Positions 2,073 through 48,299 of a stretch of 64,000 bases of DNA are shown one piece after another (within the stretch, counting starts at the first letter, position 1; every line of letters starts with the position of its first letter). Origin of the DNA: a virus; IMG/VR virus record IMGVR_UViG_3300032268_000973, positions 119,358-183,357 of that record; one strand, written 5' to 3'. The notes below the pieces were generated by a model. That model did no database searches, was not told where the DNA came from, and saw only the letters and a list, made by a program, of their open reading frames with translations. Made by a program: the position numbers and the translations under genes.

Positions 2073-5000
2073 ATGGAAGTTCAATGTACGATAAATAATA
2101 TAACAGGACAGACCCCCTACGACATATATGTTTGTCAAACGGATGGTAGTGGTTGTTTTTATATTTCAACTATAAATAACTCATCTTTCCCTTATGTGTT
2201 TAACATACCAGCACCATACAACACTTCACCAAATTATATGATCAAGGCAATTGACGCCAATAACTGTATTATATCAGGAAGTAGCGCTGTTCAATTCTTT
2301 CCAACTCCTACACCAACCCCTTGGGACTTCTGTTACGAACTTGATGGAGGATTCAACAATCAAGCGGAGGCTGCGGTTGAAGATTCGAGTGGAAGAATTA
2401 TTTTTGGTGGTATTTTTACAACTTATAGTGGGCAATCATTCAATCGAATTGTTCGTGTCAATAGTAATGGCAGTATTGATAACACGTTCACTATTGGAAC
2501 TGGATTCGATAATGACGTTTATGCAGTTGAATTACAACCTGATGGAAAAATTCTTGTTGGAGGTATATTCTCATCTTATAGTGGAGTTTCTGCGAATAAA
2601 ATCATACGACTTAATTCTGACGGAACTGTGGATAATACATTTTCTAGTGGTTCTGGTTTTAATTTTTCAGTATGGTCTTTTGCAGTACAACCTGACGGGA
2701 AAATAGTTGTGGGTGGAGGATTTACTACTTACAGTGGGCAATCGGCTAATTCGATTATCAGATTAAACAGTGATGGCTCGATTGATAACTCATTTAGTAT
2801 TGGTTCAGGATTGAATAACATTGCATACGATATTATTGAACAAACGGACGGTAAAAAGTTAGTTCTTGGTTCATTTACGTCTTACAGTGGACAAACACAT
2901 AATAGAATTCTTAGATTGAATAACGACGGGACCGTTGACAATACCCTGAACGTTGGGACTGGATTCAATAGTGAGGTGTATTCATGTGTATTGGAAGATG
3001 ATGGAAAAATGGTAATTGTAGGACTTTTCGACCAATTTAGTGGACAAACTTACCGTCAAATTGTAAAATTGAATGCTGATGGATCGATTGATAATACATT
3101 TAATGTTGGAACTGGATTCCAAAGGTCTGTTGGATTATGTTTTGCTTTGAGTGTCTTCAAGTATGACACAAAATATTTTATTACAGGTGATTTTGATTTT
3201 TATAATGGAAATAGTGCAAATGGACTGATACAGCTCAATAGTGATGGAAGTAAGGATACCTCATTCAATTACGGAACAGGATTATTATTTAGTGGTACTT
3301 CTTTCAATACAGGATTACTTCTCTCAAGCGGAGTTCACATAGTCTATGGCCAATTTACTCAATATAATGGATATGAAGTGAATGATGTGGCTTATTTGAA
3401 TCCATTTGGTACTTTATTGAATTGTCCTCAATTGACACCAACACCTACTGCAACGCCAACATTGACCCCAACAAATACACCAACAACTACAAGAACCCCA
3501 ACAAATACACCAACAACCACTTCAACTCCAACAAATACACCAACAACCACTTCAACTCCAACAACTACACCAACAACTACAACAACTCCAACTAATACTT
3601 CAACAATTAATATTACACCTACTGCGACGCCAACAAATACAACAACAACTACAACAACTCCAACGCCATCCCCTACGTATGGTGGACTCACACCATTTGT
3701 TTCAGTTTGGAATACTTCGAATACTAGTGTAGGGTCGAGTGCTTCAAATCAGATTGCATTACCGCTTCAATCAAGCGGAGCTTATAATTTTGTTGTAAAT
3801 TGGGGTGATAGTAACACCAACACAATCACGTCTTGGAACCAACCTGAAGTGACTCATACTTACGCAAGTCCTGGCCAATATACAATTACAATTAGTGGAA
3901 CTTGCGAAGACTTCGGATTTGGAGGAGGAGGTGATAGGAATAAACTTCTGACTATTATATCTTTCGGGAATGTGGTTTTAGGTGATATTACAACACAATT
4001 CTCCAACTGTTTTAATTTAACTTTGACTGGAGTCACTGATACTCCTGATTTATCATCTATGACTACATTAGCGCAAATGTTCTATGGATGTAGTGGGTTG
4101 ACTACAATTAACAATATAAATTTGTGGGATGTAAGTAACATAACTAACATGCTGAGCATGTTTCAAGGGGCAACTAATTTTAACGATGATATAAGTTCTT
4201 GGGATGTTTCAAACGTGACTAATACGTCTTACATGTTCTCAGCGGCACAAGATTTCAATCAGGATATTGGTAGTTGGGATGTTTCTAATGTTACAAATAT
4301 GGGTGGTATGTTCCAATTTGCAAGTAGTTTCAATCAAGATTTGAACACTTGGAACGTATCAAGTGCTACAACTTTTTCCTATATGTTCCAAGGAGCAACA
4401 GCATTTGATAGCAACATTAGTTCTTGGAATGTTTCGAACGCCACAACTATGGTTCAAATGTTCGATCAAGCAACTTCATTCAACCAAAGTATAAGTGGAT
4501 GGAATGTATCTAACGTCACAACCATGATTGGTATGTTTGGTTCTGCATCATCATTCAACCAAAATATTGATTCTTGGAATGTTTCTAACGTTACGAACAT
4601 GGCGTCTATGTTCACTAATGCGGATAGTTTCAATCAGAGTTTGAATAGTTGGAATGTTTCTAATGTTACGAACATGGCGGGAATGTTTAGTTTGGCTAAT
4701 GTATTCAATGGAGACATAACATCTTGGAATGTTTCAGGGGTGACCAATATGGGCCAAATGTTTCTATCTGCAGTTAGTTTTAACCGAAATATTGGTAGTT
4801 GGAACGTTTCAAATGTAACAAATATGGGTCAAATGTTTGCTTCAGCGTCAATCTTCAATCAGGATATTAGTTCTTGGGATGTTTCGAGTGTAACAGATAT
4901 GGGATCGATGTTTAATAGCGCTTTAGCATTTAACCAAAATATTGATACATGGGATGTTTCGAGTGTAACAGATATGTTCTTCATGTTTTCTAATGCAAAT

Positions 5001-5630
5001 AGTTTTAATCAAAATCTTAATAGTTGGAACGTTTCAAATGTAACTACAATGGAGTTAATGTTCTATGGTGCGGACAATTTTAATGGAAATGTCAGTAATT
5101 GGAATGTATCAGGAGTAACAAGCATGGCAGGAATGTTTTGGGACGCGACTACATTTAATCAAAATATTGGTGGTTGGGATGTTTCAAATGTCACCGATAT
5201 GAGTAGAATGTTCCGAAGTGCGGCGGCATTCAATCAAAACATCAGTGGATGGGATGTATCTAGTGTCACTAACATGCTAGAAATGTTCTATTTAGCCGCA
5301 AACTTCAATCAAAACATTGGTGGATGGGATGTTTCGAGTGTAACAGATATGGAGGGAATGTTCAATAGTGCAAGTATTTTCGATCAAAATATCGGAAGCT
5401 GGGATATTTCTAATGTGACTAATTTTGTAGATTTCATGAACAATAAAACATTTACGAATTATAGTTCAACTAACCTTAATGCTATTTATAATGGATGGAG
5501 TTTGTTGACCCTACAACCTAATATAGTGATTGATTTCAATACAATAAAATACACTGCGGCTGGACAATCAGGAAGAAACATTTTGACAGGAGCCCCAAAC
5601 AATTGGTCAATTACTGACGGAGGTATATAA
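2073..5630 (+). CDS. Giant adhesin: N-terminal module, delta-60-type propeller repeats, PKD-like, BspA/DUF285 repeats
   Basis: 1185 residues. Residues 1-80 form a Cys-containing module that recurs at the start of the gene at 5642. Residues about 95-450 carry about seven repeats of the form DGKILVGGIFSSYSG..RLNSDGTVDNTF, matching delta-60/DUF5122 beta-propeller repeats. A Thr/Pro linker (about 455-535) follows, then a PKD-like stretch, and from residue 685 eighteen units starting W(N/D)VSNVTNM..MF, the BspA-type leucine-rich repeat (DUF285). The role is probably host recognition as a tail fibre or receptor-binding protein. These repeat types are typical of bacterial surface proteins, so horizontal acquisition is plausible. 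The domain calls rest on pattern recognition alone. Confidence 0.85.
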   Translation: MEVQCTINNITGQTPYDIYVCQTDGSGCFYISTINNSSFPYVFNIPAPYNTSPNYMIKAIDANNCIISGSSAVQFFPTPTPTPWDFCYELDGGFNNQAEAAVEDSSGRIIFGGIFTTYSGQSFNRIVRVNSNGSIDNTFTIGTGFDNDVYAVELQPDGKILVGGIFSSYSGVSANKIIRLNSDGTVDNTFSSGSGFNFSVWSFAVQPDGKIVVGGGFTTYSGQSANSIIRLNSDGSIDNSFSIGSGLNNIAYDIIEQTDGKKLVLGSFTSYSGQTHNRILRLNNDGTVDNTLNVGTGFNSEVYSCVLEDDGKMVIVGLFDQFSGQTYRQIVKLNADGSIDNTFNVGTGFQRSVGLCFALSVFKYDTKYFITGDFDFYNGNSANGLIQLNSDGSKDTSFNYGTGLLFSGTSFNTGLLLSSGVHIVYGQFTQYNGYEVNDVAYLNPFGTLLNCPQLTPTPTATPTLTPTNTPTTTRTPTNTPTTTSTPTNTPTTTSTPTTTPTTTTTPTNTSTINITPTATPTNTTTTTTTPTPSPTYGGLTPFVSVWNTSNTSVGSSASNQIALPLQSSGAYNFVVNWGDSNTNTITSWNQPEVTHTYASPGQYTITISGTCEDFGFGGGGDRNKLLTIISFGNVVLGDITTQFSNCFNLTLTGVTDTPDLSSMTTLAQMFYGCSGLTTINNINLWDVSNITNMLSMFQGATNFNDDISSWDVSNVTNTSYMFSAAQDFNQDIGSWDVSNVTNMGGMFQFASSFNQDLNTWNVSSATTFSYMFQGATAFDSNISSWNVSNATTMVQMFDQATSFNQSISGWNVSNVTTMIGMFGSASSFNQNIDSWNVSNVTNMASMFTNADSFNQSLNSWNVSNVTNMAGMFSLANVFNGDITSWNVSGVTNMGQMFLSAVSFNRNIGSWNVSNVTNMGQMFASASIFNQDISSWDVSSVTDMGSMFNSALAFNQNIDTWDVSSVTDMFFMFSNANSFNQNLNSWNVSNVTTMELMFYGADNFNGNVSNWNVSGVTSMAGMFWDATTFNQNIGGWDVSNVTDMSRMFRSAAAFNQNISGWDVSSVTNMLEMFYLAANFNQNIGGWDVSSVTDMEGMFNSASIFDQNIGSWDISNVTNFVDFMNNKTFTNYSSTNLNAIYNGWSLLTLQPNIVIDFNTIKYTAAGQSGRNILTGAPNNWSITDGGI
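3435..3680 (+). repeat. Thr/Pro linker-encoding simple repeat
   Basis: Degenerate tandem array of ACN-CCN-type codons (units such as ACACCAACAACTACA) coding the flexible linker between the propeller and PKD/BspA parts of the adhesin. The same codon pattern recurs at 460-530, 1330-1560, 5855-6015, 6635-6810, 6980-7110 and 7375-7430. It could support recombination between adhesin genes. Confidence 0.8.
4125..5399 (+). repeat. 17 in-register 75-bp units encoding BspA-like repeats
   Basis: Tryptophan codons opening each unit lie at 4125 and every 75 bp up to 5400 (17 x 75 = 1275 bp exactly), followed by a last degenerate unit. Each unit encodes 25 residues with W(N/D)VS, a central MF and a terminal FNQ.I. 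No indel breaks the register, although the nucleotide sequences have diverged between units. Confidence 0.9.
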
Positions 5631-47092: not shown

Positions 47093-47124
47093 TTTGATAT
47101 AATAAAATATTCTGACTATGTTTG
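47093..47124 (+). promoter_or_regulatory. Promoter of small hairpin RNA 1
   Basis: TTTG at 47093-47096, 20-bp spacer, TATGTTTG at 47117-47124. The box continues TGAAACATT, giving a 13-nt sequence shared exactly with the second unit at 47364-47376. Confidence 0.65.
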
Positions 47125-47129
47125 TGAAA

Positions 47130-47182
47130 CATTTGTCCCACAAATGACAGTTCGAGAGAAAAAGAGTTTGTGGGACTTTTTT
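47130..47182 (+). ncRNA. Putative small RNA 1 (promoter-hairpin unit)
   Basis: From the likely start a few nt after the -7 box to the T-run. It is dominated by a 10-bp hairpin GTCCCACAAA (47135-47144) / TTTGTGGGAC (47167-47176) with a 22-nt loop, followed by six T, so it is also an intrinsic terminator. No ORF. It stands 28 bp before the tRNA. It may be an independent 50-nt RNA or a promoter-proximal attenuator. Confidence 0.5.
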
Positions 47183-47210: not shown

Positions 47211-47282
47211 CGCAGGATAGAGCAGTGGAAGCTCGTCAGGCTCATAACCTGAAGGTCGAAAGTTCGAATCTTTCTCCTGCTA
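47211..47282 (+). tRNA. tRNA-Met(CAT), initiator type
   Basis: Cloverleaf: acceptor GCAGGA (47212-47217) / TCCTGC (47275-47280); D arm GAGC/GCTC; anticodon stem TCAGG/CCTGA with loop CTCATAA and anticodon CAT at 47243-47245; T arm GAAAG, TTCGAAT, CTTTC. Position 1 is C and 72 is T, so the top pair is unpaired, and the D stem has A11:U24. Both are hallmarks of initiator tRNA-fMet. Only two of the three usual G-C pairs of the anticodon stem are present (29:41 is A-U). CCA is not encoded; CAA follows A73. Confidence 0.9.
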
Positions 47283-47287
47283 CAACG

Positions 47288-47335: not shown

Positions 47336-47367
47336 TTTGATTGTTAAAAGTAACTTTCTTAGATTTG
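47336..47367 (+). promoter_or_regulatory. Promoter of small hairpin RNA 2 or the large RNA
   Basis: TTTG at 47336-47339, 20-bp spacer, TAGATTTG at 47360-47367, followed by the TGAAACATT block shared with unit 1. Confidence 0.65.
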
Positions 47368-47372
47368 TGAAA

Positions 47373-47429
47373 CATTCGAAGGAAGAGGTAGTAAGTCCCT
47401 TTTAGGGTTGTAAATCCTCTTCCTTTTTT
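47373..47429 (+). ncRNA. Putative small RNA 2 (promoter-hairpin unit)
   Basis: GGAAGAGG (47381-47388) / CCTCTTCC (47416-47423) with an inner hairpin (CCCTTTTAGGG), then six T (47424-47429). It repeats the design of unit 1: identical 13-nt start region, one hairpin, T-run. It may be an independent RNA or a leaky 5' element of the large RNA downstream. Confidence 0.5.
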
Positions 47430-47461
47430 GAGTGAAAATTTGTTCTTTGAAAATATTTTTG
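47424..47461 (+). promoter_or_regulatory. Possible promoter of the large structured RNA
   Basis: TATTTTTG at 47454-47461 fits TAnnTTTG; a T-rich TTTTTTG at 47424-47430 lies 23 bp upstream, at the long end of allowed spacing. Weaker than the two promoters before it. Confidence 0.4.
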
Positions 47462-47465
47462 GGCG

Positions 47466-48299
47466 GTCTATAGTCCAATAAAATAAACTGTGAAAGCAGG
47501 ATAAAGTGACTTGGTTAGGTTGAACTGAGTTGCGGTTTCCTTAGGGGAACTCGAGTAGACAGGCGAGATATCGTTGGACCTTAAGTACCGAGGGTGACAC
47601 TGTAGGGAAAGTGGTTTGATGACTGAGCGATGTGGGTCGTTTGGTTGAGGTGGGAACACCAATAAGAATAACTCGTAGGATATTTGTGAGAAATACGGTC
47701 ATCCAACCGTATAATTACGTTATCCAATATAAAAGTTTACTTAAAACCGAAAGGCATGAATTCGTACAGGTGGTGCTGTTGTTTTCCTTATTGGGTGTTT
47801 ACCAAGACCTCAATCTGAAGTTGACTTGAAATATGGAGGTGGGGACATCTCAGAGAGTAGTTTTGTATTCCGTTGTTCAAAAGATAACGGAGCAGGTGAC
47901 GGACCGCTACTTTCCAATTCCACAAACCAATAACCAATCACATTATAACAATTTGATAAAGGGAAAGTGTCCGTCAGTCATAGGAAACAGGTGACTACAT
48001 AGTCGTGAGATGTTCACGGCCGTAGAGGATCCCAAGTCCGAAACGAGTTCTGAGAAATATCTCTATTCCCGCAAGGAAGAGTTGGTGAGGCATCATCGAA
48101 GAGAATTGAGTATCAGGAGAGTATTCTATGACTTCAAGGAGTGGTTAACCTAAACAAACCGTCACTGAGGATTACTATCCAAAAGATAGTGGAAACGAGG
48201 GGAAATCATAATCCCTCTAAAGATCCTTAATGAAAGGTGTATTCTCAACCTTATTTTTATTTTCACCCCTACTAAAAAAAAAGTAGGGGATTTTTTTTT
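47466..48299 (+). ncRNA. Large structured non-coding RNA (GOLLD/ROOL-like candidate)
   Basis: About 830 nt with no credible ORF, visibly richer in G and C than the genes around it and ending in a strong intrinsic terminator. Many local hairpins can be seen: GGTG-GGAA-CACC (47649-47660), ATACGGT/ACCGTAT (47693-47712), ACCTC/GAGGT (47807/47836), TCCGTT/AACGGA (47869/47886), GTCGTGA/TCACGGC (48002/48014), ACTATC/GATAGT (48174/48185), GAGGG/CCCTC (48197/48213). Longer-range helices: TGACGGAC (47897-47904) with GTCCGTCA (47969-47976), and AGGTTGA (47517-47523) with TCAACCT (48245-48251), which would close nearly the whole domain. The size, the phage context and the neighbouring tRNA recall GOLLD and ROOL giant RNAs. 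I cannot match a family consensus without a covariance model, so class is open. Confidence 0.7.
48266..48299 (+). terminator. Strong intrinsic terminator of the large RNA
   Basis: CCCCTACT (48266-48273) / AGTAGGGG (48282-48289) with an all-A loop, then nine T. Confidence 0.92.

Follow-up and report, generated by a model that had tools for sequence, protein, structure and literature searches.

The closest described relative of the locus studied here is the GOLLD RNA env-38, which was found by cryo-EM to form a hollow cage as a 14-mer, in which bridge B7 is an intermolecular kissing loop of L20 with J13/15, and the L21a loop of bridge B8 alternates between GC and CG; env-38 sits downstream of a Met-tRNA (PMC12286853). 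Several possible cargoes of the cage were proposed in the same paper, together with a climb of GOLLD expression at lysis and a mention of ribosome binding to GOLLD in pull-downs (PMC12286853). The structure of GOLLD cages has been solved ahead of their function and mode of synthesis. A second system of relevance is the rRNA operon of Escherichia coli, in which boxA, present in the leader and a second time ahead of 23S, binds NusB and is both required and sufficient for the antitermination complex on rRNA (PMC10250234).

The window analyzed here is a stretch of 64,000 nt (positions 119,358 to 183,357 of the 183-kb IMG/VR virus record IMGVR_UViG_3300032268_000973), and all coordinates refer to positions in this stretch. 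Rfam cmscan gave a plus-strand match to RF02032 at 47853-48251 with 318.9 bits versus a cut-off of 150, covering the model end to end (positions 1-416); this model represents the GOLLD 3′ domain only, the 5′ domain not being in Rfam. The ROOL covariance model found nothing, whether at its gathering score or with E relaxed to 1, and ROOL and the other RNA families were rejected since their covariance models gave no match. Judged by sequence, the RNA at 47461-48252 is a GOLLD, and neither a ROOL nor a new class. As in other GOLLDs, a large structured 5′ domain precedes the 3′ domain, giving ~800 nt in total. The original prediction had assigned a GOLLD/ROOL-like RNA or a new class to 47373-48299; its GOLLD arm agrees with the RF02032 score, and an RNA is indeed present in that span, with shorter limits, the first ~90 nt belonging to a leader (47368-47460) that lies outside the RNA body. 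As a whole, that description of a structured non-coding region held together with most of its features, except for a helix proposed to close ~730 nt. The class is already known and GOLLD had been named in the prediction; the present analysis adds the full-length RNA with covariation in both domains, evidence that the cage contacts are conserved, a leader of rRNA style in almost all of the clade, and a neighbouring tRNA of initiator-like type. The features are summarized in Table 1.

Table 1. Features of the GOLLD locus in the window
Feature	Position	Strand	Remarks
Initiator-like tRNA-Met (CAT)	47211-47283	+	A11:U24, C1xU72 mismatch, AGG/CCT in anticodon stem
Presumed GOLLD promoter	47360-47374	+	Bacteroidota-type -7 box TAGATTTG (47360-47367) in extended motif TANNTTTGTRAAACA
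Leader hairpin, boxB-like position	47373-47434	+	Core 47380-47424; leader MFE -26.2 kcal/mol
boxA GTTCTTTGAAA	47442-47452	+	
GOLLD RNA body	47461-48252	+	792 nt; conserved span in relatives
GOLLD 5′ domain	47461-47852	+	Without Rfam coverage; starts with hairpin 47461-47476; 10 covarying pairs
GOLLD 3′ domain	47853-48252	+	Rfam match 47853-48251
Pseudoknot clamp, 5′ strand	47898-47904	+	Pairs with 47969-47975; 47900-47973 covaries
Variable linker	47915-47960	+	G-poor, 6.5% G; 41-69 nt in relatives
Presumed bridge B7, side one (J13/15)	47961-47962	+	Pairs with 48032-48033
Pseudoknot clamp, 3′ strand	47969-47975	+	Pairs with 47898-47904
Second long-range pairing	47992-47995 with 48161-48164	+	98/98 at four pairs; 47994-48162 covaries
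Presumed bridge B7, other side, loop L20	48031-48035	+	
Hairpin L21a, presumed bridge B8	48066-48078	+	Loop with palindromic GC, or CG at an offset of one
Intrinsic terminator	48266-48299	+	

Relatives were gathered from IMG/VR via conserved DNA patterns inside GOLLD, and a similarity search of phage records additionally yielded two metagenomic phages of 635-642 kb. The first DNA pattern scan gave chance matches for the most part. Profile searches returned 86 full-length two-domain relatives at first and then 170, making up 98 clusters with lengths of 767-869 nt, in which the counterpart of hairpin 47461-47476 (GGGCGGTCTATAGTCC) marks the start of the conserved RNA. The homologous loci were found in viral contigs. 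A prophage or host origin was rejected, since a subtype pattern that catches 24 of 43 clusters had 0 matches in the genome collection; RF02032 was likewise found in 0/148 Bacteroidota genomes, a weak result because the controls of that search gave no match either. The virus record, the viral relatives and a tRNA 177 nt before the RNA start, which had been noted shortly upstream in the prediction, agree with the phage or prophage origin near tRNAs that is typical of GOLLD.

Two ORFs of at least 60 aa lie inside the region (47468-47662 on the minus strand and 47632-47829 on the plus strand), and both were open and in frame in just 2/98 relatives, so that a protein-coding reading was rejected. 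No coding gene was found here in the related phages, in line with the earlier statement that the region holds no credible ORF. The strong intrinsic terminator proposed at its end was also recovered, and a terminator-like site was present within 130 nt of GOLLD in 59/94 clusters.

Covariation was scored against a tree-aware null, in which the substitutions of each tree branch were redistributed, and the resulting E-values, obtained by fitting an exponential tail to 30-40 null alignments, are approximate. Thirty-one pairs covaried at E ≤ 0.05 in the 98 clusters, each formed as a standard pair by 93% or more of the sequences, with 10 in the 5′ domain and the remainder in the 3′ domain; a smaller set of 43 clusters gave 20 significant pairs. 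RNAalifold consensus structures comprised 123 and 108 pairs with ~95% of cells paired, and 20 helices or sub-helices were distinguished in the 5′ domain and 18 in the 3′ domain. The many strong local helices anticipated from the single sequence thus exist and show compensatory changes. The reading of the region as an ordinary intergenic or coding stretch, with helices arising by chance, is refuted by these covarying pairs and the RF02032 score, and the rarity of relatives with open ORFs also speaks against it.

A predicted mid-range helix at 47897/47969 was refined to 47898-47904/47969-47975, whose seven pairs were formed in 96-98 of the 98 clusters with many compensatory changes. Since the outer stem 47853-47861/47906-47914 is crossed by this helix, it constitutes a pseudoknot that holds the variable linker in a clamp. 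The helix possibly corresponds to a published GOLLD stem, and we claim no novelty for it. By analogy with env-38, the linker is expected to sit inside the cage. On the other hand, the proposed closing helix (AGGTTGA at 47517 with TCAACCT at 48245) was rejected, because most of its positions go unpaired in relatives (pairing in 2-30 of 43) and its 3′ strand has another partner in 48235-48239, with covariation of the pairs 48236-48250 and 48237-48249.

The published cage contacts were then located, the numbering of stems and loops (L20, J13/15 and L21a) being our own. At the positions corresponding to bridge B7, 98/98 and 97/98 clusters form the two pairs that join 47961-47962, on the flank of the linker, to 48032-48033, with GC, CG and AU replacing one another, and the pair 47962-48032 covaried significantly, in agreement with the published bridge. 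For the presumed bridge B8, GC or CG was found in the loop of hairpin 48066-48078 (Table 1). Such patterns provide good evidence of selection acting on the cage contacts within the clade. Because the pair 47962-48032 fits bridge B7 of the 14-mer, the GOLLD of the window likely forms a cage as well, in which the 5′ domain would be expected to make the cap and the 3′ domain the ring.

Upstream of the RNA body, the order of elements is promoter, hairpin, boxA and GOLLD. The Bacteroidota-type promoter boxes that had been proposed at the 5′ side were recovered, and the 183-kb record contains their extended form TANNTTTGTRAAACA at exactly three places, 47117, 47360 and 48318, all within 1.2 kb near the tRNA and GOLLD; this distribution suggests a promoter form special to the tRNA/GOLLD locus. 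A hairpin with a stem of at least 4 bp lies between promoter and boxA in 70/77 leaders of the relatives, with differing stem sequences. The longer leader hairpins (that of the window and those of loci L263, L230 and L314) have paired GUAA-containing internal loops that are alike in sequence, perhaps a protein-binding motif.

The boxA motif is conserved between the promoter and the stable RNA: GTTCTTTRA was found within 130 nt upstream of GOLLD in 95/96 clusters versus 0.008 expected per locus in the same contigs, as it was in 41/42 clusters of an earlier sample. This count is not circular, because the loci had been fetched with GOLLD-internal patterns and not with the leader. The spacing of boxA from GOLLD spanned 16-111 nt in the first 42 clusters, so that conservation applies to the motif as such. 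The exact GTTCTTTGAAA is present as a single copy in the 64 kb of the window and is one of two in the 183 kb. A TANNTTTG box was detected within 120 nt upstream of boxA in 61/94 clusters, the commonest spacing being 34-36 nt; boxA itself was rejected as a promoter element, as the promoter boxes lie farther upstream.

An exact search of the genome collection for GTTCTTTGAMATATTG returned predominantly Bacteroidota loci. Although rRNA is a tiny share of the genome, 34/119 exact copies were located within Bacteroidota rRNA operons (4 before 16S, 22 before 23S and 8 just after 16S). Copies of GTTCTTTGACATATTG were also seen outside rRNA operons in Bacteroidota genome loci, including L514, with three in one 5.7-kb contig. 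Host 16S leaders follow the order promoter, hairpin, boxA-like motif and 16S, but only 1 of the 18 leaders examined held the exact GTTCTTTRA, the remaining ones holding variants, a point against an rRNA-style role of the motif; the boxA of the phage leader has the sequence found in host rRNA operons, with the qualification that 16S leaders often hold variants. Most telling are the other GTTCTTTGAMA copies in GOLLD contigs, of which 17/27 lay up to 400 nt ahead of a tRNA, the usual distance being 23-29 nt, and for this reason phages of the clade seem to mark their stable-RNA genes with the boxA motif.

By analogy with E. coli, boxA would act in antitermination of GOLLD. It is also conceivable that the GOLLD assignment is right and GTTCTTTGAAA functions in processing or stability of the transcript, or as a phage-regulator site, common to the stable-RNA genes of these phages. 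The variable distance of the motif before both GOLLD and tRNAs and the rarity of its exact form in host 16S leaders are consistent with such a role, as is a literature search of limited coverage that returned no functional data on Bacteroidota boxA; we nevertheless consider it unlikely, given that rRNA operons of Bacteroidota contain the same sequence, in most cases ahead of 23S and in some genomes ahead of 16S, and that the promoter-hairpin-boxA order is that of the E. coli rRNA operon. The near-universal presence of boxA in the clade points to a way for a long untranslated RNA to escape Rho termination, the same route would perhaps provide for co-transcriptional folding of GOLLD, and the host pathway is mutable.

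As a whole, the locus is in our opinion best explained as the source of a bulk transcript of rRNA style whose folding gives an RNA cage; we regard this reading as probable. RNA polymerase would start at the box at 47360 and make the leader hairpin and boxA, upon which the host factors that act in rRNA antitermination, NusB and S10 among them, would turn it processive; the processive polymerase would then make the untranslated, structured 0.8-kb RNA in bulk, like rRNA. This RNA would fold into its 5′ and 3′ domains, and the conserved loop-loop bridges would assemble them into a hollow cage of many subunits with the G-poor linker inside. The cage could finally work on or for the translation apparatus, namely the ribosome or initiator tRNA. 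The near-universal boxA of the clade would also suit a decoy, in which an abundant boxA leader with a structured body titrates NusB-S10 and shuts off host rRNA synthesis. Such a decoy is very unlikely, because the body too is under strong structural selection, bridge pairs included, and other GOLLD lineages do without boxA.

The tRNA next to GOLLD provides a functional clue for the last step of the cage pathway. Initiator tRNAs are marked by Pu11:Py24 and an unpaired 1:72. Both hallmarks and CAT are present in the neighbouring tRNA, but its anticodon stem (AGG/CCT) has only two of the three G-C pairs of an initiator; it is the sole tRNA in the 183-kb record. Among 88 clusters with enough flank, a nearby tRNA was present in 41 and none in 47, so that the link is a preference and not a rule. 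The nearby tRNA was CAT in 38/41 clusters, and CAT with Pu11:Py24 in 30; when distinct tRNAs were counted, 41/47 near ones were CAT versus 21/279 distant ones, the latter being mostly of the C11:G24, elongator type. In 14 clusters a tRNA starts within 20 nt after GOLLD, and RNase P may therefore set the GOLLD 3′ end in them. Just before the tRNA of the window, a promoter-like box leads directly into a strong hairpin (47135-47176) with a T-run behind it, and this stretch (47117-47182) possibly encodes a small terminated RNA of ~60 nt. A tmRNA was observed close to GOLLD in two phage contigs (L097, 6490-6895; L087, 5074-5445 on the minus strand), and none was found in the 183-kb record of the window.

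The initiator-like tRNA preference fits the ribosome binding in pull-downs (PMC12286853), and a role of GOLLD in translation can be guessed from it, one that is weakly supported and that we hold to be rather unlikely. A more elaborate and fairly unlikely version has the phage imitating an rRNA operon with its GOLLD locus, where boxA would capture the host machinery for rRNA antitermination and folding, and the abundant cage together with the phage initiator tRNA would redirect or store the host translation initiation machinery. Bulk GOLLD might instead serve the capsid or the lysis-stage packaging of another cargo (metabolite, protein or nucleic acid), the tRNA being a chance or regulatory neighbour. 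The cargoes proposed for GOLLD and its rising expression at lysis (PMC12286853), and also the fact that over half of the clusters are without a close tRNA, make this a serious possibility, somewhat short of an even one; its weak point is the CAT bias of close tRNAs, as distant tRNAs are of all kinds. The boxA leader and the tRNA preference make the function of GOLLD directly testable.

The host is probably a member of Bacteroidota, as suggested by the type of its promoter and the form of its boxA, by an SprB-like repeat of weak score (E = 0.005, short of the cut-off) and by the similarity of the DNA primase of the record to that of a Flavobacterium phage, the primase showing a distant likeness of ~30% identity to Flavobacterium and Bacillus phage primases. 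A search of the record for the terminase (phrog_2) gave no match. A plus-strand gene at 2073-5630 encodes a protein of 1185 aa in which ten DUF285 stretches occur along with six DUF5122 propeller repeats and which is likely to function at the surface or in adhesion.

Compared with known systems, the locus resembles ROOL, a cage-forming phage RNA that is likewise long and located close to tRNAs (PMC12286853), and differs from it in that ROOL is a separate family without a match in the window. GOLLDs are also present in Acinetobacter phages Herod and AM24 and in Mycobacterium phage Rope; those of Herod (225.2 bits) and Rope (180.6 bits) score above the RF02032 cut-off, and those of the Acinetobacter phages are located in a tRNA island. 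However, their 5′ domain is at most weakly similar to that of the window, and no boxA-like motif occurs within 900 nt upstream of their 3′ domain; boxA is therefore not required for GOLLD in general, and was rejected as a general trait of the class. The likeness to env-38 extends over the complete 3′ domain model, the two domains, a similarly placed disordered linker, pairs equivalent to bridges B7 and B8, and the proximity of both RNAs to a Met-tRNA, whereas the promoter-hairpin-boxA leader of the window is unmentioned in the env-38 paper (PMC12286853). A literature search, with incomplete coverage, returned no paper joining ROOL and boxA, and as far as checked, the pairing of GOLLD with a boxA leader and an initiator-like tRNA looks new. 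The leader finds its counterpart in the boxB-boxA leader of rRNA operons; in the phage it precedes a cage RNA and not rRNA, with antitermination predicted from the nucleotide sequence, and the two systems share the succession of promoter, hairpin, boxA and a long structured untranslated RNA, often with a tRNA.
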